From: Melioribacteraceae bacterium
Lineage (GTDB): Bacteria > Bacteroidota > Ignavibacteria > Ignavibacteriales > Melioribacteraceae
Length of the DNA stretch: 64,000 nt
Assembly: GCA_027030245.1 (NCBI GenBank)
Contig: JALVFE010000016.1
Span: 558,001 to 622,000 of the forward strand
Direction of reading: 5' to 3'
Shown here: piece by piece, positions 44,383-63,213 of the stretch
Layout: each line of letters begins with the position of its first letter
How positions within the stretch are numbered: the first letter of the stretch is position 1
Made by a program: the position numbers and the translations under genes
Notes under the pieces: generated by a model
Database searches by the model: none
Seen by the model: only the letters and a program-made list of their open reading frames with translations
What the model was told of the DNA's origin: nothing

Positions 44383-44392
44383 GAGATTTGCA

Positions 44393-44740: not shown

Positions 44741-44750
44741 CAAATATTTC

Positions 44751-44769
44751 ATTTCGTTAATTATGAAAT
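44751..44769 (+). promoter_or_regulatory. Possible second ArsR operator between arsR and arsM
   Basis: ATTTCGTTAATTATGAAAT shares its left arm exactly with the operator before arsR, but the right arm is imperfect. It could give separate arsenic control of arsM. Confidence 0.45.
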
Positions 44770-44825
44770 TATAATTTGCAGAATATTCCGTTTTTCTAAA
44801 TGAATACAAGAGAAAGGAAAATCTT

Positions 44826-45623: not shown

Positions 45624-45709
45624 TTTCTTAACCAACTTTAAAATAAAATCGCAGTTTCGTTTTTAAAAAATAAAAAATCAACAATGCGCTTTTCAGCGTT
45701 ACGTAATCT

Positions 45710-47014: not shown

Positions 47015-47029
47015 TTATAAAAGGGGTTT

Positions 47030-47446: not shown

Positions 47447-47502
47447 ATTTTATGTTCTCTGTGCTAGACAATGCTATCAAGTTTAATTATGGAGATTAAA
47501 TC

Positions 47503-47748
47503 ATGTTGTCGATAAAAGTTGTAGGACCAAATTGCGTTAATTGCAATAAACTTTATCAAATGTGTAATGAAGTTATCGAAGAAAATAATCTTGATGCGGA
47601 GATCGAAAAAATTGATAATCCCGATAAATTTGTTGAACTGGGAGTTTGGATTACCCCGGCGCTTATTGTCAACGGTCAACTTTTACTCCAAGGCAAATTG
47701 CCTACAAAATCAACATTAACACATTGGCTGGAAAGAGGCGGAAGATGA
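47503..47748 (+). CDS. Small thioredoxin-fold redox protein (thioredoxin_3 family)
   Basis: 81 residues with the active-site pair Cys11-V-N-Cys14, preceded by 'IKVVGPN', and the cis-proline segment '[15 protein letters not shown]'. This compact family is often encoded beside arsenic or metal permeases; it may deliver electrons to ArsC or thiols to the transporter, which is inference from position. Its stop codon overlaps the acr3 start (ATGA), so the two are translationally coupled. Confidence 0.88.
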
Positions 47749-48812
47749 ATACGGTTACCAAAAGATTAAAACTTATCGACAGATTTTTAACGCTCTGGAT
47801 ATTTATTGCAATGTTTGCGGGTGTTTTTTCCGGTTATTTATTTCCAAAGATTACCGATTTCTGGAATTTGTTTCAGTCCGGCACGACCAATATCCCGATT
47901 GCAATCGGACTAATTCTAATGATGTATCCGCCGCTTGCAAAAGTAAAATACGAAGAACTTGGCGATGTATTTAGAAATACAAAAATTTTATCCGTTTCAT
48001 TAATTCAAAATTGGGTTATAGGACCAATACTAATGTTTGCGTTGGCGGTTTTGTTACTGCACGACTATCCTGAATATATGGCAGGACTAATAATGATTGG
48101 TTTGGCAAGATGTATTGCAATGGTAATCGTTTGGAACGATCTTGCAAACGGAGACCGCGAATATGCCGCGGGACTTGTAGCGTTTAATTCCATTTTCCAA
48201 GTTTTGTTCTACTCGGTTTATGCTTATATATTTTTAACTCTTATTCCCGAATGGTTGGGAATTGCTTCATTCAAAGTTGATGTTACAATAGGACAAATTG
48301 CGGAAAGCGTGCTTATTTATCTCGGCATTCCTTTCTTCGGAGGAATTTTAACAAGATATTTTTTGATTAAGAAAAAAGGTAAATCATGGTATAACCGTAA
48401 GTTCATTCCCAAAATAAGTCCGCTAACCTTGTACGCATTACTTTTTACAATTTTTGTAATGTTTTCATTAAAGGGCGAGTATATAGTAAAAATTCCCTTA
48501 GACGTTGTGCGAATTGCAATTCCGTTAATACTATACTTTATAATAATGTTTTTTATTTCGTTCTATATGGGTAAAAAAGTCGGAGCAAATTACCCGGTGA
48601 CCACAACTTTAAGTTTTACTGCCGCAAGTAACAATTTCGAATTGGCAATTGCTGTAGCCATAGCCGTTTTCGGAATCAACAGTGGAGAAGCCTTTGCGGC
48701 GGTTATCGGTCCCCTGGTTGAAGTTCCGGTTCTAATAACATTGGTAAACGTTGCATTAAAGTTCAGGGAAAAATATTTCGCAGACAAATTAGTTGAAGAG
48801 CTAAATATCTAA
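47745..48812 (+). CDS. acr3: Arsenite efflux transporter Acr3
   Basis: 355 residues with ten predicted transmembrane helices. The conserved, functionally required cysteine is Cys123 in '[16 protein letters not shown]', followed by '[12 protein letters not shown]'. The second half has '[20 protein letters not shown]'. I use the ATG at 47745, which overlaps the thioredoxin stop; the frame is open further upstream, but that extension lies inside the thioredoxin gene and has no hydrophobic or Acr3-like sequence. It exports As(OH)3 driven by the proton motive force. Confidence 0.95.
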
Positions 48813-48829
48813 ATTAAACAAGAGGAAAT

Positions 48830-49065
48830 ATGAAAATCAAAATATTAGGTACACATTGTAAAAAATGCATGGCGCTTCACAAAAAAATAAATGAACTGGT
48901 TGAAAAGCACAATATTGACGCAGATGTTGAATTTATTGAGATATCAACGAAATGATGAATTATGGAATTATGATGACTCCCGGACTGGTAATCAATGAAG
49001 AAGTTAAAAGTTTCGGTATTGTTCCGAAAGAAGCGCAACTTTTACAATGGTTACAGGGAAGTTAA
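48830..49065 (+). pseudogene. Frameshifted second thioredoxin_3-family gene
   Basis: The first frame encodes 'MKIKILGTHCKKCMALHKK' with the C-K-K-C active site, then stops at a TGA near 48953. A one-base deletion near 48938 (GAGATATC where GAAGATATC is expected) accounts for this. In the next frame the protein continues 'NEMMNYGIMMTPGLVINEE' to 'WLQGS' and a stop at 49063-49065. The repaired product of about 78 residues matches the small thioredoxin upstream in layout. A recent mutation or an assembly error are equally possible. Confidence 0.8.
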
Positions 49066-49146: not shown

Positions 49147-49692
49147 TCAACCCGATATTTGCTTCATACCGTAAGCCACCGAAATAATAGCGATGCCGTC
49201 GAAAACAAGACTAATTCCAACAAAAAGTCCGACCAACCAAATAGAACTAAGCGGCCAACCTGTTAAAAAGACAACAGCCAATAAAATCGACAATATTGCA
49301 TTAAACAACATCCATCCCCAACCTTTTAACGGATAAAATTCCAATGCAAACATAATACCCGCAAAACCATCGAATAAAAAATATATTATTAATAACAATC
49401 CGACCGATACAATACCGGTTAAAGGATAAAGTAAAATCAATATTCCGATGGTTAATAAAATTAAAGGTTTGAACCATGCAATCCATTTTGTGTTATAACT
49501 TTTAAAGATATGATAAGCCGAAATTGTGCCGCCAATTACAAGTAACCAACCTATAAAATAAGAAAGCGTTAATGCCGTTACATCAGGCAATAGAATTCCG
49601 ATTATTCCGGCTATTAGTAATAAACCTCCGGCAACATACGAATGGATTTTAAATTGTTTTAAGATTTCCTCTGTATTAAAATATTCATGCAT
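49147..49692 (-). CDS. HdeD-family (DUF308) membrane protein
   Basis: 181 residues with six evenly spaced hydrophobic helices in three pairs, each resembling 'AGGLLLIAGIIGILLP', the HdeD/DUF308 repeat. In E. coli HdeD is linked to acid resistance at high cell density; the molecular function is unknown. It is the last gene of the second SPW operon, 25 bp after the CBM48 protein gene. Confidence 0.88.
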   Translation of the reverse strand: MHEYFNTEEILKQFKIHSYVAGGLLLIAGIIGILLPDVTALTLSYFIGWLLVIGGTISAYHIFKSYNTKWIAWFKPLILLTIGILILLYPLTGIVSVGLLLIIYFLFDGFAGIMFALEFYPLKGWGWMLFNAILSILLAVVFLTGWPLSSIWLVGLFVGISLVFDGIAIISVAYGMKQISG

Positions 49693-49717
49693 TTTACCTC
49701 CGTCAATAGTTAAAACA

Positions 49718-50032
49718 TTAGTCCAAAATTATAACGCAATCTATCGCATCCCCGAAATGGCTCTGGATAAAATCATCTGCTTGATCATCGTTAATCCATT
49801 GCACTCCGTCTAACAAATATCTGAACTTAAATTTGTTTTTTGCAGGCAAGTTAATAGTAATAGTAAACTCACCGCTTTTTTTATTCTTTTTCATTACATG
49901 TTTGTTTGGATCCCACATATTAAAATCACCCACAATGCTTGCCGTGTTAAACTCCTTGGAAATCTCGGCCGGTAAAGTAAATTTAACTTTATATTCATCC
50001 TTTGTTTTAAGTTTCCTTTTCTGAATAGCCAT
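49718..50032 (-). CDS. Stand-alone CBM48/AMPK-type glycogen-binding domain protein
   Basis: 104 residues made almost wholly of an isoamylase early-set/CBM48 domain: 'VKFTLPAEIS', then 'ASIVGDFNMWDPNKHVM', then 'KFKFRYLLDGVQWINDDQAD'. The aromatic residues used for alpha-glucan binding (W in 'FNMWDP', W in 'VQWIND') are present. There is no enzyme domain and no signal peptide. Why it sits between two membrane stress proteins is unknown; anchoring to glycogen or sensing energy reserve are guesses. An AAAGGAGGAT ribosome site precedes the start. Confidence 0.85.
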   Translation of the reverse strand: MAIQKRKLKTKDEYKVKFTLPAEISKEFNTASIVGDFNMWDPNKHVMKKNKKSGEFTITINLPAKNKFKFRYLLDGVQWINDDQADDFIQSHFGDAIDCVIILD

Positions 50033-50050
50033 TTTATCCTCCTTTCAATT

Positions 50051-50082
50051 AAAAAGGAAGTTGATCATTACAATCAACTTCC
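50051..50082 (-). terminator. Strong hairpin with U-run between SPW and CBM48 genes
   Basis: A perfect 10-bp stem GGAAGTTGAT/ATCAACTTCC (50056-50065 and 50073-50082), followed on the minus strand by TTTTT and, 13 bases on, by the CBM48 ribosome site. It is either a terminator limiting read-through or an mRNA-stabilising hairpin. Confidence 0.7.
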
Positions 50083-50132
50083 CTCAACGTTTTAGCTATC
50101 TTGCATCATGCATTCAACAGCAATTAAAAGAA

Positions 50133-50468
50133 TTAATGAGAATGCGCCGGTGTATGTGTAGTAGGAGTAGATTCACCCAAAGCACCGAATCCTCCAACCA
50201 TCAACAAAATACCGGTGATAATAGCATTCCATTCGTTACCAACACCAACCACCAAGCTAGGAATGAACGCTGCTATGATTAACCAAATTCCTACAAGTCC
50301 GGTTAACCAACCTTGCCATGGTTTTTCTTTTACCATTGCAAAGCCTGCTACTGCAGCTACAACGCCAACTATGATGTCATTCCACATATTACCCGTGGAA
50401 GAAAAATTCAGAAAAGCAGCAATAAACATCCAAATTCCGATTATTCCGTTTGTCCAACCTTGCCACAT
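50133..50468 (-). CDS. SPW-repeat membrane protein, copy 2
   Basis: 111 residues with four hydrophobic helices in two repeats, each beginning with a 'WQGWTNGIIGIWM'-type motif (the second is 'WQGWLTGLVGIWLI'), and a His-rich tail 'HTPAHSH'. The SPW family has no known function. It is about 70% identical by eye to the copy at 58345-58680, including the leader GGAGG...ATGTGGCAAGGTTGG. It heads the operon SPW-CBM48-HdeD, behind a sigma-54-like promoter. Confidence 0.87.
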   Translation of the reverse strand: MWQGWTNGIIGIWMFIAAFLNFSSTGNMWNDIIVGVVAAVAGFAMVKEKPWQGWLTGLVGIWLIIAAFIPSLVVGVGNEWNAIITGILLMVGGFGALGESTPTTHTPAHSH

Positions 50469-50520
50469 TTTAACCTCCCTCCGATTTTGTTATTGATTTC
50501 GTTAATTACACTTTATAAAA

Positions 50521-50536
50521 GTCAATCATTGTGCCA
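50521..50536 (-). promoter_or_regulatory. Sigma-54-like promoter upstream of SPW copy 2
   Basis: On the minus strand TGGCACAATGATTGAC: a perfect -24 element (TGGCAC), with the -12 element TTGA in place of TTGC at the correct spacing. It ends 53 bp before the SPW start codon, close to the 47 bp seen for copy 1. Confidence 0.45.
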
Positions 50537-50673
50537 ATGATTGCAGAATCTGTAACTTCTTATATTTCAATAACTTACAGCAACCCCTTTTAATGAGTGA
50601 TTTTTAATGGGAAATTAAATTTCCTAGACTTATTAAAAATTGTTGGAAATTAGCGGAATTAACGGATTTAATT

Positions 50674-50692
50674 TGTGAAATCAAATTTCACA
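50674..50692. promoter_or_regulatory. Candidate enhancer palindrome for the second SPW operon
   Basis: TGTGAAAT-CAA-ATTTCACA, a perfect 8-bp inverted repeat about 140 bp upstream of the promoter. It shares TTTCACA with the palindrome at 58804-58822. The spacing does not fit the CRP/FNR site. Confidence 0.45.
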
Positions 50693-50714
50693 CATTGCAG
50701 AATGGTTGGGTAAA

Positions 50715-52007
50715 CTATTTTTTCTTTCTGAAAATAAATAAAATTCTTCTTTCACTGAAAAGCAGTTCGGCAATAATCACCGCCGCATAAAAACCGCCAA
50801 GCCAAATAAACCCATCGTTGTTGTTTTTCCACAGATAAATAATTAATATCAACCAAGATGCAAAACTTAAAATAAGCCCTGCAATTGGATAAATAATATT
50901 GATTCCTATTTCTTTACGGAGTTTAAAGGCTGAAAAATTAATGAACACGAAAATTAACAGAAATGTGGAACTTGCAAACGAAGAAATAAGAGTAAGATCG
51001 GCAATGTTTACAAAAACCAAAGTTAAAACCGAAATTACAGTTAAACTGACCCACGGAATATTTTTAGTTCTTTCTTTAAATGAGAATATTTTAGGAAGGT
51101 CTTTTTCTTGAGCCATAACCATTCCCAATCTGGCGGTTCCGAACAATGTGGCATTAATTGCAGATGCCGTTGAAAGTATGGCACCAAGACTTATTAATAC
51201 AAATCCTGTTTTACCAAGAAACGGTTTTGCGGCTTCCGCTAATGCGTATTCCTTATACTCCGCAATTTTATCGGGAGTTAAATTGCCCACGGCAACAAAC
51301 GAAACTAACAAATAAATAAATATTGTAATTAAAATAGATATTGTTATGCTTTTAGGCAGATTTCTATCGGGGTTTTTCATTTCATTGACAGCATTGGGAA
51401 TTAACTCAAAACCCTCGTAGGCTACAAAAATTAGAGCGGCGCCCATAAAAAGATTGGATGCATTTTTATCGAAAACCGGAAAGATGTAATTTTCTTTAAC
51501 AAAGAAGATTCCTACACCCGCAAATAAAAAAAGAATAATTACCTTAGTAATAACAATTAACAATTCGGTGCTTCCCGCGGCTTTTATACCGTAAAGGTTA
51601 ATTCCCAAAAACAACAGAATCACAAAACTTTCAAGGAAATGTTGTATTTCAATCGAATATCCCGAGTTACCCGCCATAGCGCTGGCATAAACACCAAAAG
51701 TATAAGAATATAAAGATAGTGTTCCGATATAACCGACAAACAACAGCCAACCGCCTATTGCCGCAATATTACGGTTCTTAACACTTTTCTCCATGTATGT
51801 AAAACTTCCGCCATCCGAACGGAATTTTAAACCCAATTTTGAATATGAGTATCCGGTTAATAAAGCAATTATCCCGCCGATTAAAAACGCAACGGGAGCC
51901 GCATGCCCGGCTAAACCTACTGATAATCCGAGAACAGAAAAAATTCCTCCACCTACCATTCCGCCAACACCCATGGCGATTAATTCTTTAAGATCTAATT
52001 TTTCCAT
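50715..52007 (-). CDS. APC-superfamily amino acid/polyamine permease
   Basis: 430 residues with about twelve transmembrane helices. The APC signature is at the N-terminus ('GVGGMVGGGIFSVLGLSVGL', the unwound helix 1 glycine motif), with 'ALIFVAYEGFELIPNAVNEM' in helix 6 and 'GTARLGMVMAQEKDLPKIF' after helix 8. The substrate is unknown. It lies 15 bp after a paralogous permease. As the last gene of the H+-ATPase operon it may use the proton gradient to import amino acids or exchange them in acid resistance. Confidence 0.85.
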   Translation of the reverse strand: MEKLDLKELIAMGVGGMVGGGIFSVLGLSVGLAGHAAPVAFLIGGIIALLTGYSYSKLGLKFRSDGGSFTYMEKSVKNRNIAAIGGWLLFVGYIGTLSLYSYTFGVYASAMAGNSGYSIEIQHFLESFVILLFLGINLYGIKAAGSTELLIVITKVIILFLFAGVGIFFVKENYIFPVFDKNASNLFMGAALIFVAYEGFELIPNAVNEMKNPDRNLPKSITISILITIFIYLLVSFVAVGNLTPDKIAEYKEYALAEAAKPFLGKTGFVLISLGAILSTASAINATLFGTARLGMVMAQEKDLPKIFSFKERTKNIPWVSLTVISVLTLVFVNIADLTLISSFASSTFLLIFVFINFSAFKLRKEIGINIIYPIAGLILSFASWLILIIYLWKNNNDGFIWLGGFYAAVIIAELLFSERRILFIFRKKK

Positions 52008-52022
52008 ATAAATAATTCTCTG

Positions 52023-53354
52023 TTATTTTTTACCTACAGTTAATTTTTCACGGAATTTAATATCCGTAAAGTCACGGGATTGGATTTTTCGGTATAAAAA
52101 TTCTACTATAAACGAAACCAGAAATGTAATCACGGTTCCATAAAACACATTGCGCTGAGACTCCCATTGATAGTACATCAACAAAAGAAATACTATAGAG
52201 ATGATGAAAAGATTAATTGCCACTACCACTCTGTTTCCGCCTACCTCGTTAATTATTTTCAAGTGAGAAATAAGCACAAATACATATATAACCGTAAAAA
52301 CCGAACTTGTGATGGCAGCGATGCCCCCGATATTGAATAGTAAGGCAAAAAGTATTCCCAAGCCGGCGGTAATGTATAATCCTTCGGGAGCACCAAACCA
52401 TTCCTTTCTCTCGAAAAATTCGGGCAGCTCACCTTCTTTGGCAAATGAGTAAGCTATGTTAGCGCCTCCGTAAAGCGTTGCGTTCAGCGCCGATGAAATT
52501 GAAAATAATGCCCCTATTGAAATTAACAGAAATCCGAAATTACCAAGAAAAGGTTTTGCCGCAACAGCAAGAGCATTTTCCTCGGAAGCTATTAATTTTT
52601 CAAGCGGTAAATTACCTACGGCAACAAGCGAAACAGAAACATAAACAAATGCAACTATCAGAATACTTATTATTATTGCCTTGGGAACGTTTTTCTGTGG
52701 ATTATCCATATTCTCCGAAATGTTGGTAACAAGACCGAACCCCATGTACGAAAGGAAAAATATCACCGAAGCGTGAATTAATCCGCCTACGTGTGCGGAA
52801 TCGAAAGAAGGAACTATTAATTCCGGCTTAATGGTAAAAAAACCGAATAAAATAAAAACCCCGAGTATAGTTAACTTTACCAGAACAATATAGAATTCCG
52901 CTTTTCCCACCGCTTTTGAACCGAAAAAATTCAGAACCATAAAAAATAAAACAACTGAAGTTGTAGTAATCCCGATTGAATAGGGAGACAAGGCAAAACC
53001 GAATAGCGGCAGAAAATAACCCGCAAAGCCTTTGGCAAAAAGAGCAATTGAAACTACATAACTTAACCAAAGTAATATGCTCAGTGTTCCGGTAATTACC
53101 GTATTACCGAAACCTTTTAATATAAACGCAATCGGCCCGGCATTCGAAACAATTCTGCTTCCCATTTTGGTATAGGAATAAGCAACGGCATAGGCATAAA
53201 ATGCCGATAAAATAAAAGCCTCCGGTAGATCTTGCTTGGCGATTTGAGTCCCCACCCCAAAAATGGAGAATATACTTGCGCCAATCATTGTGCCCACGGC
53301 AATCGAAACCGCCTCGACAATACTGATTTTCTTGTTTTTATTTATGTTTACCAT
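52023..53354 (-). CDS. APC-superfamily permease (paralogue)
   Basis: 443 residues, about twelve transmembrane helices. Matching marks are 'AVGTMIGASIFSIFGVGTQI' (helix 1), 'YMGFGLVTNISENMDNPQKN' (helix 6) and 'GGANIAYSFAKEGELPEFFE'. It is clearly related to the permease that follows but diverged (about 35-40% by eye), so this is an old duplication. The first helix motif G-x-x-x-G-A-S-I-F is complete. Substrate unknown. Confidence 0.85.
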   Translation of the reverse strand: MVNINKNKKISIVEAVSIAVGTMIGASIFSIFGVGTQIAKQDLPEAFILSAFYAYAVAYSYTKMGSRIVSNAGPIAFILKGFGNTVITGTLSILLWLSYVVSIALFAKGFAGYFLPLFGFALSPYSIGITTTSVVLFFMVLNFFGSKAVGKAEFYIVLVKLTILGVFILFGFFTIKPELIVPSFDSAHVGGLIHASVIFFLSYMGFGLVTNISENMDNPQKNVPKAIIISILIVAFVYVSVSLVAVGNLPLEKLIASEENALAVAAKPFLGNFGFLLISIGALFSISSALNATLYGGANIAYSFAKEGELPEFFERKEWFGAPEGLYITAGLGILFALLFNIGGIAAITSSVFTVIYVFVLISHLKIINEVGGNRVVVAINLFIISIVFLLLMYYQWESQRNVFYGTVITFLVSFIVEFLYRKIQSRDFTDIKFREKLTVGKK

Positions 53355-53390
53355 AAAACTCCTGTTATTAACCGGTTGATGCGTAAAGAT

Positions 53391-53828
53391 TTATTTTATT
53401 AAAATAACAGGAATTTTAGATTTACGAAGAACTTTTTCCGCCGTACTACCGAGTAATAATCTGTCTATCGGATTTAACCCTTTTTCACCGATAATTATTG
53501 CGGTTGCATTTTCCTTTTCGGAGTAAATTAATATTTCTTCGAACGGTTTTCCTTTTACAACATCCACTTTAGTATTTATTCCGTTCGCTTCAAATTTCTC
53601 TTTAACTTTTTCCAATTTTTGGTACGCTTTATCAATTGCCCTCTCCTCAACGTACATATCGTTAATGATAATTTGACCGGTAACAGGAGATTTGGAAAGC
53701 AACTTGGGTTCAACAACATGTAGCAGGATTAACGTTTCGATACCGCAGTTCGCAAGTTTAATGATTTCATCATTTATTTTTTCCGATGTTTCCGAGAAAT
53801 CAATCGAATATAATAATTTACTTAACAT
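53391..53828 (-). CDS. Universal stress protein (UspA family, ATP-binding type)
   Basis: 145 residues, one Usp domain. The nucleotide-binding pattern G-x2-G-x9-G-S is complete in 'GEKGLNPIDRLLLGS', and the protein ends 'RKSKIPVILIK'. It is nearly the same length as, and closely similar to, the next Usp upstream. Usp proteins bind ATP and modulate stress survival by unclear means. It lies between that Usp and the permease genes in the H+-ATPase operon. Confidence 0.9.
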   Translation of the reverse strand: MLSKLLYSIDFSETSEKINDEIIKLANCGIETLILLHVVEPKLLSKSPVTGQIIINDMYVEERAIDKAYQKLEKVKEKFEANGINTKVDVVKGKPFEEILIYSEKENATAIIIGEKGLNPIDRLLLGSTAEKVLRKSKIPVILIK

Positions 53829-53849
53829 TTCACACCTCTCTTTTTTACA

Positions 53850-54287
53850 TTAACGAATTAATATAACCGGAACGTTCGCTTTTCTCATTACTTTTTCGGC
53901 GGTACTTCCAAGCAGCATCCGTTCAACAGCGCCAACCCCTTTGTGCCCCAAGATAATGGAAGTTACCTTTTCCTCTTCCGCATAGTTTAATATTTCGTTA
54001 AAGGGAATACCTTCTCTCACAACGGTTTTAACATTAAAACCCTCTCTGGTCAGTTCAGCTTTCCATTCGTCAAGGGATTTCTGAATTCCTTTAACAATTT
54101 CACCTTCTTGTTCAAAATTTTGAATTTCTATTACTTCCATCATTGTGAAATAAGTAAAAGTCCTAACGTCGAGAACGTTTAACAGTATTATTTCTTTCAC
54201 ATTACATTTTTTTAGTTTTAATAATTCATTTTTTGCTTTTACAGAATATTCCGAAAAGTCGGTTGGGAAAAGAATTTTTTCTAACAT
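53850..54287 (-). CDS. Universal stress protein (UspA family, ATP-binding type)
   Basis: 145 residues from the ATG at 54287, which has GGAG six bases upstream; the ATG four codons earlier contains that ribosome site and is unlikely to be used. The ATP motif is complete ('GHKGVGAVERMLLGS'). It begins 24 bp after the P-type ATPase gene. Alignment with the neighbouring 145-residue Usp supports the shorter start. Confidence 0.9.
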   Translation of the reverse strand: MLEKILFPTDFSEYSVKAKNELLKLKKCNVKEIILLNVLDVRTFTYFTMMEVIEIQNFEQEGEIVKGIQKSLDEWKAELTREGFNVKTVVREGIPFNEILNYAEEEKVTSIILGHKGVGAVERMLLGSTAEKVMRKANVPVILIR

Positions 54288-54311
54288 TTTTATCTCCATT
54301 TCATTTATTGT

Positions 54312-56978
54312 TTAATTATTTATTTGCAAATGTCCGTAATGTTTTCTGTAATTGTAAAATAATTTTTTGAATAACGAATTACCTTTAATGAGATGACGGT
54401 AGAAATAAACTTTGACGATATCGTTGAAAACAAACCACGTTAAAGCGTAAGCCCAAACAATACCGCCCCAAGTCCATCCTACTGCAGGCACAAATATACC
54501 GTAAACTGCCATTAAAGTTCCCAGCACACGGGTTGAAAATGTTGCTCCGAACAAAAGCCAGGAAGGATAGGGCTTTTTGAAAAACCAATCCGTTGTTCTG
54601 GTATTGTAGATTGTTCCGTGTCCTGCAACAACCATTTTGGCAAAAATAATCGCTTGTATCATTTCCTTTGAGTAATTGGTATAAGTTTCCAACAAGAAAA
54701 AGATGAGAAAAGACGAAATAACACCGGCAATTCCCAAAAGTGTTGAGAGTCCGAATAATTCCCCGTTATTCCATCTTACCGGTTTGTCATCTATTTTCGT
54801 ATTATCATAAGCGATAGCCAAAATAGGAATATCGTTTAACAAAGCTAAAATAATTATCATCAATGCGGTTAACGGATAAAAGTCGAATACCACAATGGAA
54901 AGCGTCATAAATAAAATCACTCTAATCGTTTCCGCTATTCTGAATATCGAATAACTTTTCATGCGTTCGAAAATTATTCTTGCCATTTTAATCGCATCGA
55001 TAATAACTGATATTCCGGGTGTAAGAAGAACCAAATCGGCAGCGGCTCTAGCCGCATCCGTCGCACCGGAGACAGCGATTCCGGCATCAGCTTTTTTAAG
55101 CGCAGGCGCATCGTTTACGCCGTCTCCCGTCATCCCAACAATATGGTTTGCTTTCTGTAGTTTTTCCACTATTAGATATTTATCTTCCGGAAATACTTGA
55201 GCAAATCCGCTCGCCTCTTCGATTATCTTTATAATGTCAGATTCGTGTTTATCCAAGTGAGAATTTTTTATTCCGCTCAAATCAAACTCTTTCTCCAGCT
55301 CCTCCGCTATTTCATTCGCAAATTTTTTCGCTTCACTTTCCGGCAATCCGGGATTTAATTTTTGATGAATAATTTTTGCAAGGTATTCACTCATCTTTAT
55401 AAATTCACTGCCGGATTTTCTTTTAAGTTCACCCGCTTCCAATATTTTCGGTTCCAAACCCAACTTAATTGCAATTTGATTTGCTATTGCAACGTTATCT
55501 CCGGTAACCATTTTAATATCCAAACCCAAATTCTTTGCTTCTTCAATTGTTTGTTTGGCATCTTCCCTCGGTGGATCGTAAAGCGGGATAAGTCCGACAA
55601 ACTTAAAGTTACTTTCATTTGCCTCTTTTACTGCAACACCTAAAGTTCTATAACCTTTTTCGGCAAAAAGATTAACATCTTTTTTAACTTTATCTTCATC
55701 AGCCGAGTTTTTACAAAGTTTCAAAATAACTTGCGGCGCTCCTTTCGTAACCGTAAACTTGTGAATACCTTGAGCAATTACCGCTTCGGTTCTTTTGCTT
55801 ACCGGATCGAACGGTTTGAAATTAAGTTGTTTAAATTCCTTTAGTTTATCATCAAGGTTCATCTTTGTTAAGTAGGAAAAAATCGGTTGTTCAATCGGAT
55901 CGTTATTTTCTTTCTTTGAAGCAAGCGCCGCATATATCATTAAATGTTTTTCGGTGAAATTTCCGTACAGCACAGGTTTATCGGTAGTCATTTTGTTTTT
56001 AGTGAGAGTTCCGGTTTTATCCGAACAAAGGACATCTATACCAGCTAATTCTTCTATTGCCGCAAGTTTACTTACAACAGCTTGCTTTTTAGCCAAACTC
56101 ATTGCGCCTACTGCCATGGTTACGGTCAATACTGCAGGCAGTGCAACGGGTATTGCCGCAACAGTCAGAACAAGAGTAAACCTAAGTATTTCCAACATGT
56201 TTTCGTCATGGTAAATCGCATTCAGCAATATAATTACCGCCATAATGATGGTGGTAACGATAAGATAATTTCCAACTTTAATTACCATTTTTTGAAAATG
56301 GCTTTTTTCTTCCTTCTCCGCTTTTGCCACCAGTGAAACGGTTTTACCGAAATATGTATTAATTGCCGTTGCAGTTACAACCGCCAGCATTTCGCCTTGT
56401 TTTACAATAGAATTGGCAAACGCAATATCGTTTGCATGTTTAGTTACGGGTAGTGATTCACCCGTTAATGCCGATTGATCAATTTGCAGATAATCACCGT
56501 CAATTAATTTTACGTCAGCAGGAATTACCTCCCCGATTTTTAATTTTATTATATCACCTGGCACCAAAAATTTTGCATCGATTGTGGAGAATTTACCGTC
56601 TCTTAAAACAGTAGCTTTTCTTGCAAGTTTATTTTTCAATACTTTCAGAACATTTATGGCTTTGCTTTCTTGCCATAATTCCATTCCGGCATTTACCAGC
56701 AACAGTGTTGTTATTATTCCGAAGTCTTCCCATTTTTGTACAAGCGCCGAAAGTATTGCGGCTACTTCAATCATCCATGGAATAGGTCCCCAGAATTTTT
56801 TGAAAATCCGTTGAAGCGTTGTTTCTTCTTTCTCTTTTATTTCGTTATAACCGTATTTATCAAGAATCTCTTTTGCCGCCTTTTCGCTTAAGCCGGTATT
56901 TTTATCCGTGTTCAGAGCTTTTAATGTTTCTTCAATAGAAAGTTTACCAAAATCAATTTCATTATTTTTCGTTTTCAT
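54312..56978 (-). CDS. Plasma-membrane proton-pumping P-type ATPase (type IIIA)
   Basis: 888 residues. The cation-ATPase N-terminal domain is about 10-70. The actuator loop has T172-G-E-S175, helix 4 has 'PVALPAVLTVTMAVGAM' (Pro277), the phosphorylated Asp is Asp320 in 'CSDKTGTLT', and the hinge is 'MTGDGVNDAPALKKADAGIA'. About ten transmembrane helices are predicted. P-V-A-L-P in helix 4 and the overall length fit the fungal/plant/archaeal H+-ATPase group. It would export protons at the cost of ATP, useful in acid or when respiration fails. Partners in the operon are CBS and Usp proteins. The region about 535-600 between the catalytic Asp and the hinge carries a charged insertion ('ESEAKKFANEIAEELEKEF'). 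Confidence 0.92.
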   Translation of the reverse strand: MKTKNNEIDFGKLSIEETLKALNTDKNTGLSEKAAKEILDKYGYNEIKEKEETTLQRIFKKFWGPIPWMIEVAAILSALVQKWEDFGIITTLLLVNAGMELWQESKAINVLKVLKNKLARKATVLRDGKFSTIDAKFLVPGDIIKLKIGEVIPADVKLIDGDYLQIDQSALTGESLPVTKHANDIAFANSIVKQGEMLAVVTATAINTYFGKTVSLVAKAEKEEKSHFQKMVIKVGNYLIVTTIIMAVIILLNAIYHDENMLEILRFTLVLTVAAIPVALPAVLTVTMAVGAMSLAKKQAVVSKLAAIEELAGIDVLCSDKTGTLTKNKMTTDKPVLYGNFTEKHLMIYAALASKKENNDPIEQPIFSYLTKMNLDDKLKEFKQLNFKPFDPVSKRTEAVIAQGIHKFTVTKGAPQVILKLCKNSADEDKVKKDVNLFAEKGYRTLGVAVKEANESNFKFVGLIPLYDPPREDAKQTIEEAKNLGLDIKMVTGDNVAIANQIAIKLGLEPKILEAGELKRKSGSEFIKMSEYLAKIIHQKLNPGLPESEAKKFANEIAEELEKEFDLSGIKNSHLDKHESDIIKIIEEASGFAQVFPEDKYLIVEKLQKANHIVGMTGDGVNDAPALKKADAGIAVSGATDAARAAADLVLLTPGISVIIDAIKMARIIFERMKSYSIFRIAETIRVILFMTLSIVVFDFYPLTALMIIILALLNDIPILAIAYDNTKIDDKPVRWNNGELFGLSTLLGIAGVISSFLIFFLLETYTNYSKEMIQAIIFAKMVVAGHGTIYNTRTTDWFFKKPYPSWLLFGATFSTRVLGTLMAVYGIFVPAVGWTWGGIVWAYALTWFVFNDIVKVYFYRHLIKGNSLFKKLFYNYRKHYGHLQINN

Positions 56979-56979
56979 T

Positions 56980-57471
56980 TTATACGTTACTCCTCTCCTG
57001 ATAAGTTTTTTTGTCAGTACCTAAGAACTTACAATTTCTCATTAAAAAGCCCCATGTAATATCGTAATGGGAAATTATGCCAACCAGTTTTCCGTTTTCA
57101 ACAACGGGAAGTTGTTTCACTCTATGAGCAATCATCTTTGCACCCGCTTCTACTACAGGCAAATCGGGACTAACGACTTCCGGTTCCCTCGTCATCACCT
57201 CGGAAATTCTTTTTTCGGAAACATTCGCCATTCTCTCTTCTATCGATTGCGGATCAAGAAAGTATTCTTCATTTTCGAACAATTCCGAATAGTTGGGAAG
57301 AATTTGTCTGAATAAATCGCTGTACGTAATTATGCCTACAACTTCATTGTCGTCCGAGACAACAATGAGATTCCTTAAATTTCTTTTATGCATAAGAGCA
57401 TTAACAGTTTTTATTGTTGAGTTAACATTAACCGTTGCAGGATGCTCCGTCATTAAATCTCTGACTAACAT
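56980..57471 (-). CDS. CBS-domain pair protein
   Basis: 163 residues: CBS domain 1 at about 1-65 ('MTEHPATVNVNSTIKTVNAL') and CBS domain 2 at about 88-150 ('VMTREPEVVSPDLPVVEAG'), forming one Bateman module. Such modules bind adenine nucleotides and often tune transporters or enzymes. One base separates its stop from the ATPase start, so a regulatory role for the proton pump is an attractive inference. Confidence 0.92.
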   Translation of the reverse strand: MLVRDLMTEHPATVNVNSTIKTVNALMHKRNLRNLIVVSDDNEVVGIITYSDLFRQILPNYSELFENEEYFLDPQSIEERMANVSEKRISEVMTREPEVVSPDLPVVEAGAKMIAHRVKQLPVVENGKLVGIISHYDITWGFLMRNCKFLGTDKKTYQERSNV

Positions 57472-57485
57472 TTTGTCCTCCTGTT

Positions 57486-58316
57486 TTATAAACCGATAAA
57501 AACAGGTTTTTTGTTTTTATTGATTAAATAATTTGTTACACTACCGGTGAAAAATTCCTTTATCGCATTTTTCGAATGTGCTCCGATTACAAAAAGATCA
57601 TTTTTTTCATATTCATTATTGTCCAAAACATCCAAGATATTTTTGTCGGTATGAACAAACCGGACATTCTTTACTTTATAAGCTTCGAAATATTCCAAAA
57701 TATTTTTCCGGATAAATTCCGCCTCTTTTTCGTCATCGGATGAATTTACAATATCGATATTAAATTCCGATACTCTTGCCAAATGAATAAAGCCGTGAAC
57801 AGCTTTTGTAGCTTGCATTGAACCGTCATAAGCTATCAATACATTCTTAATTTCCGAATAATTGGTCGGTACTAAAAGTACCGGCACTTCAGAATGTGTG
57901 AGAACTTCTTTAACAGTCTTACCTTCTTTGTTTTTCTCATTATATTCATAAAACGTTCTTAATCCCATAACTACCAAATCGTGAAATTTGGCTTTTTTAA
58001 GTATCCACGAAGAAGGAATTCCTTTATCTTCTTCCAAAGTATATTTGACATTATTCATTGAACATTGTTCTATAAAGTTAGCCTCGATTCCAAGCAATTT
58101 TTGCCTAAGCTCGTAAACCCTCTGGTTTTCCAGTTTCATCGCCCAGTACATGCTTCCTACCGGTACCGAACCTATCGAAGATTCGATTCCTAGTATATCG
58201 AGCACGGTCATACCGGAAATAGTAGCATCATGTTTCTTTGCTATTGTAATGGCATACTGTATTGCGCTATCGGTGTATGATGAATCGTCCAGTGTTACTA
58301 AGATTCTCTTAATCAT
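57486..58316 (-). CDS. Tandem universal stress protein (two Usp domains)
   Basis: 276 residues with two Usp folds (about 1-150 and 155-276). The first starts 'IKRILVTLDDSSYTDSAIQY' but lacks the glycine-rich ATP loop. The second has a partial one ('GAHSKNAIKEFFTGSVTNYL'). So this protein may not bind ATP like the two small Usp proteins of the same operon. It begins 28 bp after SPW copy 1. Confidence 0.9.
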   Translation of the reverse strand: MIKRILVTLDDSSYTDSAIQYAITIAKKHDATISGMTVLDILGIESSIGSVPVGSMYWAMKLENQRVYELRQKLLGIEANFIEQCSMNNVKYTLEEDKGIPSSWILKKAKFHDLVVMGLRTFYEYNEKNKEGKTVKEVLTHSEVPVLLVPTNYSEIKNVLIAYDGSMQATKAVHGFIHLARVSEFNIDIVNSSDDEKEAEFIRKNILEYFEAYKVKNVRFVHTDKNILDVLDNNEYEKNDLFVIGAHSKNAIKEFFTGSVTNYLINKNKKPVFIGL

Positions 58317-58344
58317 TTTTAACTCCTTCCCTTTTGATTTCCGT

Positions 58345-58680
58345 TCAATGTAAGTGCGGATTTAAATTGTAATTTTTAGGAGTTTTGTTTATTGCACCGA
58401 ACCCTCCGGCCATTAATAATATTCCGCTGATAATTGCATTCCATTCATAGCCTGCATGCGTCAATAAACTTGGAATAAATGCAGAGACGATTAACCAAAA
58501 ACCTGTTATACCTGTCAACCATCCTTGCCAAGGTTTATCTTCTGCCATTGCAAGACCGAAAATGGCGGTAAGTACACCAATGATAATATATGTCCACATG
58601 TCAACTGTGCCTGAAAAATTGAAGAAAGCCGTTAGAAATAACCAAGCTCCTAAAATACCGTTCATCCAACCTTGCCACAT
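58345..58680 (-). CDS. SPW-repeat membrane protein, copy 1
   Basis: 111 residues from the ATG at 58680, chosen because GGAGG stands seven bases upstream and because its paralogue starts identically ('MWQGW'). The frame is open further upstream, but that part would lie before the predicted promoter. It has four helices in two SPW repeats ('WQGWMNGILGAWLF' and 'WQGWLTGITGFWLIV') and a tail ending 'NPHLH'. Function is unknown. It heads the eight-gene operon with the proton ATPase. Confidence 0.88.
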   Translation of the reverse strand: MWQGWMNGILGAWLFLTAFFNFSGTVDMWTYIIIGVLTAIFGLAMAEDKPWQGWLTGITGFWLIVSAFIPSLLTHAGYEWNAIISGILLMAGGFGAINKTPKNYNLNPHLH

Positions 58681-58726
58681 TTTAACCTCCATAAATTTTA
58701 ATTTGAATGATATTTGCAAATAAAAG

Positions 58727-58742
58727 TGCAAAAGGGATGCCA
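58727..58742 (-). promoter_or_regulatory. Sigma-54 promoter of the SPW/H+-ATPase operon
   Basis: On the minus strand TGGCATCCCTTTTGCA matches the -24/-12 consensus with the required GG-N10-GC spacing. It lies 47 bp before the SPW start codon and just downstream of the gene for an NtrC-class activator. Confidence 0.75.
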
Positions 58743-58803
58743 ATGTTTTGCGGTATGTTAAGTTATTGTAAAATAAAGGATTAGTGAAAACATAAATTTC
58801 TAA

Positions 58804-58889
58804 TGCGAAAAAGGTTTTCACACCGTGCGGGAAAAAAGCTTTGTTTTGTGCGAAATGATAAAGATGATACGGGAAACGCTGTTTCGCAC
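58804..58889. promoter_or_regulatory. Candidate enhancer sites for the NtrC-class regulator
   Basis: Repeated GTGCGAAA-type half-sites lie 60-150 bp upstream of the sigma-54 promoter: a palindrome TGCGAAAA-AGG-TTTTCACA (58804-58822, one mismatch), GTGCGGGAA at 58825, and GTGCGAAA (58848-58855) facing TTTCGCAC (58882-58889), the last reaching the regulator's stop codon. Confidence 0.55.
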
Positions 58890-60298
58890 TAACGGAATAT
58901 ATTCGGGTCTATAGAATACTTCTTAATTAAATTTTGTAATTGCCGCCTATCGTATCCGCTGATATCGGCTGCTTTGGAAATATTGCCTTTGGTCTTTTTA
59001 AGTAGCGTAAGTAAAAACTTTTTCTCGATACGGGAAATTATTTTTTCCGTTTTAATTTTCCTCAGTTCGTGCAATTCATCTTTTGTTAACGGAATTTCCT
59101 CATCGTCTTCCGACGTATAATTCTCAACAATTTCCTCCGGTAATTGTTTTTCTGTAATTCTTCCGTCTTTAGAAAAAATTATTGCTTGTTGAATTACATT
59201 TTCCAATTCCCTGATATTACCAGGCCAACTGTAATTTTCCAAAATTTTTAACGCCTTTTCGGAAACGGTCAGAAGTTCACCGTGTTTCAGGTCTTTATAC
59301 TTTTTGAGAAAATGTTCAACTAATAACGGTATATCTTCCTTTCTTTCCCGGAGCGGCGGAATTTTTAAATACACGACTTTCAAACGGAAGTACAGATCCT
59401 GCCTGAAATTATTTTTTTCGACTTCCTCTTTAAGATTTTTATTAGTAGCAGCAACTATGCGCGCATTTGTAGTTAGGAATTTTGTTCCTCCCACTCTTGT
59501 AAATTTTTGTTTTTCCAAAACGTGTAGAAGCTTAACTTGCAAATCCAAAGGCAATTCACCGATTTCATCCAGGAATAATGTTCCCCCGTCTGCCAATTCG
59601 AATTTACCTTTTTTAGTTGCAACCGCTCCGGTAAAAGCGCCGCGCTCGTGCCCAAACAATTCGCTTTCCAAAAGATCATGCGGAATTGCACCGCAATTAA
59701 TCTCAACGAAAGGCCCATCGGCTCTGTTGCTAAAGTAATGAATTGCATTTGCGAAAAGCATTTTACCGGTTCCCGATTCTCCTTCAATCAAAATATTAGC
59801 AGGTGTATCCGCAACTTGAGCGATTAGTTCCATAATTTTTTTCATTTCGGGATTTATGGTGATAATCTCGTTAAAGCCTTCGTATTTTTTTATTTTCTCT
59901 TTAAGCTTTAAGTTTTCCTCTAAAAGTTTTCCGTAATTCAACGATTTTTCGATGAGCCTTTCCAATTCTTCAACATTAATCGGTTTGGTTATATAATCTA
60001 GTGCTCCCATTTTCATTGCCTCTACGGCATTTTCAATTGAGCCGAACGCAGTAATTAATATCACGGGAATGTTCTTATAATATTTTTGAATCCGTTTCAA
60101 TAATTCCAGACCGTCCATGCGCGGCATTTTCATATCGGTTAAAACCAAGTGAACTTTATTCTTCTCAATCAAATCAACCGCTTCTTCTCCGTTACCGGCT
60201 TCCAAAACTTCATACTTATTTTTCAAGTTCAGAGCCAATACTTTTCTTTCTTTTACTTCGTCGTCTGCAATCAGAATTGTGGGTCTGAAATTATCCAT
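58889..60298 (-). CDS. Sigma-54-dependent response regulator (NtrC class)
   Basis: 469 residues in the standard three parts. The receiver domain (1-120) has phosphoacceptor Asp55 in 'LVLTDMKMPRMDG' and Lys in 'YITKP'. The AAA+ domain (about 145-380) has Walker A 'GESGTGK' (173-179) and the sigma-54 contact loop 'GAFTGA' (220-225). The Fis-type helix-turn-helix ends 'NISKAADISGYDRRQLQNLI'. All catalytic parts are intact, so it should open sigma-54 promoters when phosphorylated. It overlaps the kinase gene by 8 bp. The promoters at 58727 and 50521 are likely targets. Confidence 0.96.
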   Translation of the reverse strand: MDNFRPTILIADDEVKERKVLALNLKNKYEVLEAGNGEEAVDLIEKNKVHLVLTDMKMPRMDGLELLKRIQKYYKNIPVILITAFGSIENAVEAMKMGALDYITKPINVEELERLIEKSLNYGKLLEENLKLKEKIKKYEGFNEIITINPEMKKIMELIAQVADTPANILIEGESGTGKMLFANAIHYFSNRADGPFVEINCGAIPHDLLESELFGHERGAFTGAVATKKGKFELADGGTLFLDEIGELPLDLQVKLLHVLEKQKFTRVGGTKFLTTNARIVAATNKNLKEEVEKNNFRQDLYFRLKVVYLKIPPLRERKEDIPLLVEHFLKKYKDLKHGELLTVSEKALKILENYSWPGNIRELENVIQQAIIFSKDGRITEKQLPEEIVENYTSEDDEEIPLTKDELHELRKIKTEKIISRIEKKFLLTLLKKTKGNISKAADISGYDRRQLQNLIKKYSIDPNIFR

Positions 60299-62426
60299 TG
60301 TTTTCCCCGCTATCGATTTTATGTTTTATAATAAATTCGGTATTACCAAATTCAGATTTGAAATCGATGCTTCCACCGATTATTTCGACAATATTGTTTA
60401 CTATCGCCAACCCAAGTCCGGTTCCTTCTTCCTTTGTTGTGAAAAAAGGATCAAAAACTTTTTCTTTATGTTCTTCAGCAATACCGACACCATTATCTTT
60501 AACTATTATTTTATAAAATTCTTTGTCTTTATCAAAAGTAAATGTTAGTCTGCCATCGTTGCAGTTAAAAGAATCATCGTTTTGGCACCTTTCGTTTATT
60601 GCATCAAGCGCGTTAATTCCCAAATTAAGTAATGTTTGATATAATATATCCGCATCCGTAAAAATCACGGAATTGTTTGCTTTAACATTCATTTCTATTT
60701 GAATATTGTTTTTATTTTTCGATTGTAATGCTAACGCAACCCTTTCGAATAGTTCGTTGATATCCGTGCGTGTAAAATTAACTTCATGTTTTTTGGAGAG
60801 TTTAAGAAAATCCTGCAAAATACGTTCGAGCCTGTTTATTTCTTCATCAATGTAATTCAACAATTCTTTTTTATCTTCCTCGCTGAGATTTTTGTTCTTT
60901 ATGGTTTGGACGGACATCGAAATGGTGTTGAGCGGATTTCTAATTTCATGTGCAATGCCGGCAGTCATTTGACCGATAGAAGCTAATTTTTCGAGCCTAT
61001 ATCTTTCTTTTAGTTTACGTTGCAATTCCTCAAACATTTTATTCCGGTGCAAGGCAAGAGAGACTTCATTTGACATAATCGTTAAACGTTCTATTTCCTC
61101 TTCGGTAAAACGATCTGCATATTTTTTCTTTGCTATAAAAATAACAGCTAAAAGTTTATCGTTATATATAAACGGCACAACAATTTGAATATTGTGCTTT
61201 TCAAAATACTCCAATAAAAACTTACTTATACGATCAAAGTTGAATTCGTAAATTTCAACTGCCCTGTTTAACTCTTTTAATCTTTTTATAAAATATTTAT
61301 ATTCTTTTGCCTCTAAAACTTCCTCGGGAGAATCCTCGTTATAAAAAATATCTTTCCTTTCGTCATATACAAAAAGTATCGTTTTGCCGGTGAAAAAATT
61401 TTTGTCGATAAACGACTTAACAAACTCGAAAAATTCGTCTAAAGGTTTGTATTCTTGTATTTGGTTTGTAAACTTCGAAAAGTTATGCCGGTACTTAACA
61501 ATATCTTTCCGTAAATAAGTATCAATTCTATTTTGAAGTAATCTTTCCAAAGGACGCATAAGGAAAACCAAAATAATTATCAAAAAAGCGGTGAAAAAGA
61601 AAGAGTTAATTTTAAAATATTCGCTTACCGATTGGCTTAATCCTTGAATAACCAATACATAAACGGCTAACACAATACTGGAAAGGGTTGAATAAACTAT
61701 TCCGCTTTGTATGATCTTTGAAATCTTAAATATTTTGTAGTGTAGAATTACGTAAAGGAAAAAAATACTTATCAGAAACGTTAATGACGTGGAAAGGAAA
61801 TAAAACGAAACGGCTTCTTCAAGAATTGGTCTGAATACATTTATAATTATGAACAAAAGAAAAATTGTTAAGAATCCGCTTAAGAAAAAGAGAGTTTGGT
61901 TTCTTTGTCTTATTGTTTTTAGCTTAGGTAACTTTCTAAGAAGAACTACAATTCCCCATGCAAAGTAAATTATGGAAATTATAATTTGAGTGAAGAATTT
62001 TAAATCGACATTATAACTTAATCTGTAGTAAAAAGTGTTTTCCGCCGAACCGAATTTGATTAGTTGAATTTGAAAGTCGGGAAAAGACAGAATTAATAAA
62101 ACAACAGGGAAACCGAAAACCAAAACATAGAATATTAATTTATTGGCAAGACTGTTAAATGATTTTGGAAACTTATATGCGATAACCACAAAAAAAGCCG
62201 GAACCAAAAAGATTATTCTGTAGAGAACCTGAGCCCCCACCATTGCATTGCCAAGAGTATGGGAATTAAGTATTAATATTTCTGAAAGGTTCCACATTGC
62301 AAACATTGCAACAAAAGCGGAAAACCATCTGTTCAAGTTAGCCTTAGGATTATCCAATATTATTATTAGCGCAATACTAATATTGATAGTAAAAGATATT
62401 AGCGCCGGTAAGGAATAAATATTCAT
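60291..62426 (-). CDS. Sensor histidine kinase with N-terminal multi-helix membrane domain and GAF domain
   Basis: 711 residues. About eight hydrophobic helices fill residues 1-290, probably a membrane sensor of the 7TM-kinase type. A GAF domain follows (about 325-460), then a dimerisation/phosphoacceptor domain with His493 in 'GIAHEIRNPLN' and an ATPase domain with 'LLNLGINALDAI', 'IVKDNGVGI' and 'GTGLGLAIV'. The layout recalls PrsK, the kinase paired with PrsR in PEP-CTERM systems. The signal is unknown; membrane state or redox could be read by the helices or the GAF domain. It is co-transcribed with its regulator. Confidence 0.93.
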   Translation of the reverse strand: MNIYSLPALISFTINISIALIIILDNPKANLNRWFSAFVAMFAMWNLSEILILNSHTLGNAMVGAQVLYRIIFLVPAFFVVIAYKFPKSFNSLANKLIFYVLVFGFPVVLLILSFPDFQIQLIKFGSAENTFYYRLSYNVDLKFFTQIIISIIYFAWGIVVLLRKLPKLKTIRQRNQTLFFLSGFLTIFLLFIIINVFRPILEEAVSFYFLSTSLTFLISIFFLYVILHYKIFKISKIIQSGIVYSTLSSIVLAVYVLVIQGLSQSVSEYFKINSFFFTAFLIIILVFLMRPLERLLQNRIDTYLRKDIVKYRHNFSKFTNQIQEYKPLDEFFEFVKSFIDKNFFTGKTILFVYDERKDIFYNEDSPEEVLEAKEYKYFIKRLKELNRAVEIYEFNFDRISKFLLEYFEKHNIQIVVPFIYNDKLLAVIFIAKKKYADRFTEEEIERLTIMSNEVSLALHRNKMFEELQRKLKERYRLEKLASIGQMTAGIAHEIRNPLNTISMSVQTIKNKNLSEEDKKELLNYIDEEINRLERILQDFLKLSKKHEVNFTRTDINELFERVALALQSKNKNNIQIEMNVKANNSVIFTDADILYQTLLNLGINALDAINERCQNDDSFNCNDGRLTFTFDKDKEFYKIIVKDNGVGIAEEHKEKVFDPFFTTKEEGTGLGLAIVNNIVEIIGGSIDFKSEFGNTEFIIKHKIDSGENNG

Positions 62427-63195: not shown

Positions 63196-63213
63196 TTTAC
63201 TTCTCCTTTTTGG

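Follow-up and report, generated by a model that had tools for sequence, protein, structure and literature searches.

In the Psp response, PspF acts with sigma-54 when membrane integrity or proton motive force is lost, and a DNA-bending site lies between the enhancers and the promoter. In Mycobacterium, a two-component system governs the DosR dormancy regulon, which joins genes for universal stress proteins (Usp), CBS-domain proteins and a P-type ATPase. The present study concerns a 64,000-nt stretch of a Melioribacteraceae genome (G000, contig C16, positions 558001–622000; genome 3.8 Mb, 97.7% complete), hereafter called the window, in which a sensor histidine kinase (HK) and an NtrC-class response regulator (RR) adjoin two operons, each headed by a gene for an SPW membrane protein. 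The best explanation as a whole, to which we assign a probability of about 0.72, is that HK and RR switch the SPW operons through palindromic enhancers and sigma-54 promoters under membrane or energy stress. In logic the Psp response is the nearest system, sharing a predicted sigma-54 driven response and a site between the enhancers and the promoter, but the activator here carries a receiver domain, a kinase is encoded beside it, and the output is SPW, not PspA. RR scores below the PspF equivalog cut-off (274 vs 443.55 bits), and no pspA-type effector is found among the genes classified in the locus; the genome was not searched for one. The likeness to DosR lies in Usp, CBS and P-type ATPase genes under two-component control, but DosR is of the NarL type and its regulon is not known to involve sigma-54 or SPW.

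The nearest system in function among those compared is NmpRSTU of Myxococcus xanthus. According to its description (PMC11841059), an NtrC-like regulator acts on sigma-54 promoters through paired dyads, the regulon includes CBS-domain, Usp and P-type ATPase genes, and the system is proposed to follow oxygen or energy status. The present locus combines the same gene families with a predicted control of the same kind. The binding sites differ, being GCGCA-N5-TGCGC in pairs mostly 14–15 bp apart in NmpRSTU and GYGAAAT-N3-ATTTCRC in pairs 66 bp apart here. NmpRSTU also works as a phosphorelay, in which one kinase is a hybrid and another depends on heme; its ATPase is discussed as a pump for copper next to a cbb3 oxidase, and the term SPW is absent from the text (PMC11841059). 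The initial annotation knew of no described system with this composition, a statement that has to be softened in view of the NmpRSTU regulon. Our literature search, which took in few subscription papers, found no description of an HK-RR-SPW system and no function for SPW. The accessible text on the SPW family, PF03779 (PMC8078820), presents units of two transmembrane (TM) helices, modelled as a structure, and gives no function or regulation; both SPW proteins of the window belong to this family. PrsK/PrsR (PEP-CTERM), ZraSR and AtoSC share the architecture of a kinase with an NtrC-class regulator. HK and RR score below the equivalog cut-offs of all three, with 108 vs 300 bits for TIGR02916 and 400 vs 502.6 bits for TIGR02915 in the case of the PrsK/PrsR models.

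Pfam scans of the open reading frames (ORFs) of the window place HK, RR, operon 1 and operon 2 in this order on the minus strand. HK (60291–62426) consists of a seven-TM N-terminus, HisKA and HATPase_c. RR (58889–60298) comprises REC, AAA+ with GAFTGA and a Fis-type HTH with the recognition helix SGYDRRQLQN; both GAFTGA and the receiver Asp region are readable, and the HisKA kinase adjoins it. The RR stop lies 147 bp from the −24/−12 box of operon 1 (58889 to 58742) and eight genes follow, which confirms the genes and the order given in the initial annotation. SPW1 (58345–58680, minus strand; PF03779 52 bits, cut-off 31.5) most likely starts at the ATG at 58680, judging from its leader and its relatives; the ORF list has an upstream GTG. 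SPW2 (50133–50468, minus strand) reaches 54.5 bits against the same cut-off. A genome-wide PF03779 search returns these two genes only, each heading one operon, and their leaders around GGAGGTTAAAATGTGGCAAGGTTGG are near-identical, as had been claimed. The genome carries rpoN (C2:24839–25312, E 9.3e-62), as the initial reading presupposed.

Sigma-54 boxes were scored with a set of weights. The −24/−12 box of operon 1, TGGCATCCCTTTTGCA (58727–58742, minus strand), scores 17.1; it is a perfect site and the top-scoring sigma-54-like site of the window, and 64 kb would be expected to hold about 0.3 sites above 16. The −24/−12-like box of operon 2, TGGCACAATGATTGAC (50521–50536, minus strand), scores 11.5. 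It keeps TGGCAC and its position is conserved, but its −12 element is TTGA, without the C. Expectation per 64 kb is 12.5 sites above 10 and 4.3 above 12, and box 2 by itself is no better than chance. It becomes credible because a pair of palindromes and a further dyad stand at places matching those of the box 1 promoter and of its relatives. Thus the first of the two boxes originally proposed holds on its own and the second holds only in this setting.

The palindromes have the 7-3-7 consensus GYGAAAT-NNN-ATTTCRC, and each promoter of the window carries two of them exactly 66 bp apart. Upstream of SPW1, the distal palindrome GCGAAACAGCGTTTCCC, a predicted RR enhancer, occupies 58871–58887 and the proximal palindrome GTGAAAACCTTTTTCGC 58805–58821, 79 bp from the −24 box; a degenerate copy of the third dyad (IR2), TAATCCTTTATTTTACAATAACTTA, lies at 58759–58783, 16 bp above the −24 box. 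Upstream of SPW2, the distal palindrome GTGAAATTTGATTTCAC (50675–50691), the proximal palindrome AGGAAATTTAATTTCCC (50609–50625, 89 bp from the −24 box) and IR2 TAAGTTATTGAAATATAAGAAGTTA (50553–50577) follow in the same order, and all six elements are on the minus strand. Across the genome, perfect boxes TGGCAYNNNNNTTGCW occur at 11 sites, compared with 6 in a reversed control, and therefore about half may be chance. Palindromes with two mismatches or fewer give 67 matches, compared with 25 in the reversed control, on both strands and with palindromes partly double-counted. Among the stretches scanned, the combination of palindrome and box is found at no place besides the two SPW promoters. 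The SPW2 box overlaps a perfect inverted repeat, CAATCATTG-TGC-CAATGATTG (50523–50543), followed by a short T run on the minus strand, which might double as a weak terminator of operon 1.

The same layout is found in relatives. A search of 146 genomes of the order gave 25 SPW matches in 17 genomes, and 17 of the 25 have a 7-3-7 palindrome and a box of the TGGCAY-N5-TTGN type upstream (in L026 the box is TGGTAC and was placed by eye). Upstream of the remaining eight (L004, L014, L017, L019, L021, L023, L024 and L025), no palindrome exceeds 9 bits and a box of this type is absent. To extend the comparison, 52 SPW loci of named genomes were fetched. Twelve were already in the motif set (L104–L108, L116, L118, L123, L128, L137, L139 and L152), and of the others, 40 in number, 18 formed a group with candidate sites and 22 a group lacking them, the latter including L115, with HK on another contig, and L155, with no clear SPW ORF. 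Palindrome and box together occur at 17 of the 18, which span several phyla, and at none of the 22, where no RR adjoins SPW, the groups having been drawn with the upstream sequences in view. The controls give 0 of 527 other ORFs of at least 120 aa from 51 loci (shorter ORFs were excluded, among them second SPW copies and the CBM48 gene of L152/L041) and 1 of 900 shuffled upstream regions. A phylum-wide search added 26 further SPW loci, all without a palindrome of at least 15 bits.

The presence of the sites follows the regulator. Split by RR adjacency, palindrome and box are found at 12 of 12 loci with RR directly upstream and at 5 of 28 without (Fisher p 1e-6); L119, one of these five, shares a contig with the RR locus L111. 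In all 21 orthologous RRs whose C-terminus can be read, which come from records of Ignavibacteria, Calditrichota, KSB1, delta and Bacteroidales, the recognition helix has the form [ST]GY[DN]RRQ[IL]QN. Of the 28 further genomes with palindromes or HK, 27 have rpoN, and the miss, G135, is 77% complete.

The distance from the proximal palindrome to TGGC in the order set is 88–91 bp in 14 of 17 promoters, the rest measuring 79 (SPW1 of the window), 99 and 101 bp. At the 17 new loci, scanned between 74 and 109 bp only, it is 81 bp in one, 88–94 bp in seven and 100–106 bp in nine. Together the 34 promoters, many of them related and thus not 34 independent events, and one with a box placed by eye, fall at 79–81 bp (2), 88–94 bp (21) and 99–106 bp (11) with none between, each step being about one helical turn. 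Three clusters so spaced are as expected of an NtrC-type enhancer acting from a fixed face of the DNA. A second palindrome lies 63–71 bp further up in 14 of the 17 new loci. The control of both SPW operons by sigma-54 and the adjacent two-component system, as first suggested for this locus, is strongly supported by these sequence comparisons, in which phased palindromes are conserved across phyla and tied to the regulator.

Several observations weigh against this reading. The groups of 18 and 22 loci and the thresholds were set after the upstream sequences had been viewed, although the split by RR adjacency is less exposed to this. In the order set, a second palindrome of at least 10 bits at 55–66 bp is found in 9 of 17 promoters (six at exactly 66), and five of the 17 have a single palindrome. 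The C of the −12 element is absent from most boxes of this promoter class, SPW2 included. The co-occurrence of HK with SPW speaks for the reading, since HK (matches at E 1e-40 or better) is confined in the order to 12 of the 146 genomes, each of them one of the 17 that carry SPW; neighbouring genes may, however, co-occur by travelling together, and the p of 5e-14 ignores this physical linkage. Among 395 genomes of the phylum HK is found in 5, SPW in 29 and both in 4; 25 of the 29 SPW genomes are therefore without HK. G299 has a 31% HK homologue and no SPW; its RR helix is LDMDRRLLQN, no palindrome follows its RR, and one 13.8-bit match falls inside another gene. G485 has HK and an RR with the conserved helix, on a contig that ends inside RR, and its only SPW found lies on another contig, without a palindrome. 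Finally, G088 has a promoter with palindrome and box without a detected SPW or HK.

Other sites of this kind stand before genes other than SPW. In L159, a palindrome and a TGGTAC box come after RR and lead into Usp-CBS-FtsH-H+-ATPase genes, with no SPW. In L157 and L158, palindrome and box precede a gene for a small protein of outer-membrane type, which scores below the family cut-off in L157 and matches no family in L158, and the CBM48 gene of L152/L041 has its own site. L160–L162 hold diverged SPW-like genes with their own palindrome and dyad, that of L160 without a Pfam family at 1e-5. The order-wide search with the palindrome model scored at most 25 candidates per genome, and further targets may be missed. 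Its weak matches, present in all 146 genomes, fall mostly on the AT-rich dyad part by model position and were not counted as regulon members.

In the mechanism that we propose, the seven-TM kinase would sense a signal, presumably a membrane or energy disturbance, leading to phosphorylation of RR. Upstream of each SPW gene, phosphorylated RR would bind the palindromes (TGYGAAAT-NNN-ATTTCRCA), which stand at distances in phase with the helix, assemble its AAA+ ring and remodel sigma-54 RNA polymerase at the −24/−12 box. The two adjacent operons, headed by SPW1 and SPW2, would then be turned on. SPW would be the core membrane effector, and the genes that accompany it would restore or monitor the membrane or energy state by proton export, by nucleotide-binding Usp and CBS proteins and through a glycogen link, in a manner that varies by lineage. 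Of this scheme, comparison of sequences shows the promoter layout with its tie to RR, the co-occurrence of HK and SPW, rpoN and the cargo, while binding, phosphorylation, sigma-54 dependence, the signal and the role of SPW are predictions.

In the window, these accompanying genes are all on the minus strand. After SPW1, operon 1 encodes a double-domain Usp (57486–58316), a two-CBS-domain protein (56980–57471), a plasma-membrane-type H+ P-type ATPase (54312–56978), two single Usp (53850–54299 and 53391–53828) and two APC amino-acid permeases (52023–53354 and 50715–52007). The ATPase meets the TIGR01647 equivalog (941 bits, cut-off 615.5) and aligns to Pma1 through the region of the M6 aspartate, a residue with a role in Pma1-type ATPases. 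Operon 2 encodes, after SPW2, a CBM48 glycogen-binding-like protein (49718–50032; PF02922 24.6 bits, cut-off 22.4) and an HdeD-like DUF308 membrane protein (49147–49692; PF03729 54.6 bits). The former does not reach the gathering score of the AMPK-type glycogen-binding model PF16561 (24.5 vs 26.8). The latter matches DUF308 only and falls far below the cut-off of the HdeD equivalog NF007577 (72.4 vs 189 bits).

This particular gene set is not conserved; what is conserved is HK-RR-SPW. The core is accompanied by exchangeable cargo, namely H+-ATPase, Usp, CBS, FtsH, CFA synthase, RND and activase genes. The cargo was surveyed at the 29 loci of the palindrome-bearing group, of which L121 did not pass the stricter test for palindrome and box, and families were checked on representatives. 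The same-strand genes after SPW include a 1400-aa BcrAD_BadFG/DUF2229 activase at four loci clearly (and an 81-aa weak match in L110), FtsH at two, H+-ATPase at one, an OEP-MFP-RND trio at three, radical SAM at three, CFA synthase at three, CBM48 at three and an HdeD-like gene at one, as well as BI-1 and an M50 protease. No same-strand gene lies within 500 bp after SPW at 11 of the 29, one of which, L124, is cut by a contig end. The activase recurs after SPW in L119, L114, L117, L120 and L046, and the loci with diverged SPW-like genes, L160–L162, belong to the same set. In L158 an alpha-glucan phosphorylase follows the small outer-membrane-type protein, which strengthens the glycogen link suggested by CBM48. 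Taken by gene family, the theme appears to be membrane integrity and energy state, which makes membrane or energy stress a reasonable designation. The original proposal of a membrane-state or acid/energy-stress regulon is thus supported in part; acid is one possibility among several, and nothing specifically shows it.

SPW itself is predicted to have four TM helices. A four-helix model was obtained with pLDDT 84 and pTM 0.72, and it has no Foldseek match at E 0.001 or better and gives no functional lead. A C-terminal tail rich in His (such as HTPAHSH), which may point to metal binding, is seen in many SPW proteins of the module, SPW2 included. One Bacteroidales record has four SPW genes in a row (L130 9986–11688).

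The placement of SPW in other lineages is also instructive. At 21 SPW loci without palindromes, RR is beside SPW in none, and an ArsR-like gene is next to it in 13 (one ORF away in L145). These loci come from Thermotogae, Aminicenantes, Latescibacteria, WOR-3 and an Acidobacteria record (for instance L136, L140–L143, L148–L151 and L153, whose ArsR-like regulator has a Cys at the CV[SG] place). All three ArsR-like neighbours scanned match HTH_5. A search of three Thermotogae genomes for rpoN gave no match above the cut-off in two of them. Therefore SPW has repeatedly been placed beside dedicated but different regulators. In the RR tree, the Melioribacteraceae RR of L123 groups with two delta records (100/99) and not with its own family, which suggests that the HK-RR-SPW module was transferred; binning errors in metagenome-assembled genomes are the alternative.

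Other explanations of the locus can be considered. The one that survives best, although we regard it as unlikely, keeps the control by sigma-54 and RR and takes the signal to be a specific chemical, such as a sulfur oxyanion or a metal, handled by the FmdE-TauE-porin genes near HK. FmdE, TauE/SafE and Porin_O_P precede HK on the same strand here and at four other order loci, and they lie divergently beside HK in G485. In other phyla SPW adjoins an ArsR-family gene, and members of this family often sense small inorganic ligands. However, the FmdE-TauE-porin cluster is present at only 5 of 25 HK loci (two loci are duplicates and at least three start at a contig end), the CVC metal motif is in none of the 13 ArsR-like proteins examined, 11 of which have one Cys at that place, and the cargo is unlike that for detoxification of one ion.

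Acid resistance in the strict sense, with the proton pump and the HdeD-like protein countering low pH, is distinctly less probable. The alignment of the Pma1-type ATPase through the M6 aspartate region and the presence of a DUF308/HdeD-like protein speak for it, but besides the window an H+-ATPase and an HdeD-like gene each follow SPW at 1 of the 29 loci, and the HdeD equivalog score noted above is too low.

Somewhat more doubtful still is the proposal that the palindromes are the sites of some other DNA-binding factor, either a global regulator or a repressor, and that the neighbouring RR acts elsewhere. It would account for the five of six new palindrome-type SPW loci that keep palindrome and box without an adjacent RR, and for the one site of G088, where neither HK nor SPW was found. 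Against it stand the occurrence of both elements at 12 of 12 new RR-adjacent loci vs 0 of 22 SPW loci of the other group, the match of the palindrome–box distances to NtrC-type enhancers, the absence of a palindrome after RR in G299, whose RR helix differs, and the contig that L119 shares with an RR locus. An accidental neighbourhood, in which a general Usp/H+-ATPase stress island uses other promoters and the sigma-54 boxes are coincidental, is highly improbable: Usp, CBS and P-type ATPase genes do commonly cluster in anaerobes, and box 2 alone is at chance level, but the layout is absent from all 527 control ORFs and turns up once in 900 shuffles, and both SPW promoters of the genome have it while no other place in the stretches scanned does.

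The SPW promoters also contain IR2, a 25-bp dyad TAACTTATT-N7-AATAAGTTA seen with variable quality in 16 aligned order promoters. Among the 17 new loci of other phyla, 13 have their best match to it 15–18 bp above the box, and ten score better than shuffles at p<0.05 (one of the ten at another distance). A pattern of IR2 with TGGCA gives 31 matches in 26 of the 146 genomes, compared with 3 control matches. Of 30 such loci examined, with gene names assigned by eye, an Hsp20-like gene is downstream in 12, a Dps-like gene in two and SPW in one; the rest have small secreted-type or unassigned proteins, and about eight have no suitable start. Family scans confirmed HSP20 and HSP70 in L156, of the same genome as the window, and a ferritin-like domain in L164, at these two loci only. 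In L156 (G000:C40:111273–111355, with dnaK), IR2 lies about 16 bp above TGGCAC-N5-TTGN before the Hsp20-like gene. It also precedes Hsp20-like genes in L166, L176, L178, L180, L182, L183, L186, L191, L198, L200, L204 and L205, and Dps-like genes in L193 and L197. IR2 is absent from the genome's ten further perfect sigma-54 boxes (best score 1.2, vs 18.4 and 27.2 at the SPW promoters), although at least three of these are inside ORFs and may not be promoters. IR2 with a box before hsp20 or dps may represent a possible sigma-54 general-stress promoter class, and at the SPW promoters IR2 probably adds a general-stress or DNA-bending input. IHF was considered as the binder, but its E. coli consensus, as given in PMC7962754, is unlike TAACTTATT-N7-AATAAGTTA; a functional role is still conceivable.

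The surroundings of the system contain further genes. HK is preceded by FmdE with a zinc ribbon, a Porin_O_P gene, TauE/SafE, a second FmdE and a TetR gene (window 62593–63993, continuing beyond it in L248 203–2243). An arsenic-type cluster at 44381–49065 (ArsR, methyltransferase, ArsP_1 permease, LMWPc, thioredoxin-like and SBF-family transporter genes) is convergent with operon 2. A 169-aa protein at 43508–44017, without a Pfam family at 1e-5, resembles a REP-associated/IS200-like transposase by its MPNHIHG motif, which we take to be a sign of such proteins.

Tentatively, HK-RR-SPW may be a mobile and self-contained switch for membrane stress that occurs in several phyla and corresponds in function to Psp, with a two-component system in control, SPW at the core and repair cargo that can be exchanged. 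Its promoters would have two inputs, a specific one through the RR enhancers and one through IR2 that is shared with an unrecognised sigma-54 general-stress regulon (hsp20, dnaK and dps) in Ignavibacteria; we hold this extension to be possible and no better than that. The SPW family gains a concrete regulatory setting, in which both the regulator and the exact binding site are predicted, and its function thus becomes experimentally approachable. Sequence by itself defines a candidate regulon here, in lineages for which metagenome assemblies are the main source of knowledge. The enhancers of this regulon stand at three positions related by helical turns and offer a natural test of NtrC-type enhancer geometry. 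IR2, in turn, points to a class of promoters that may link sigma-54 to heat and oxidative stress.

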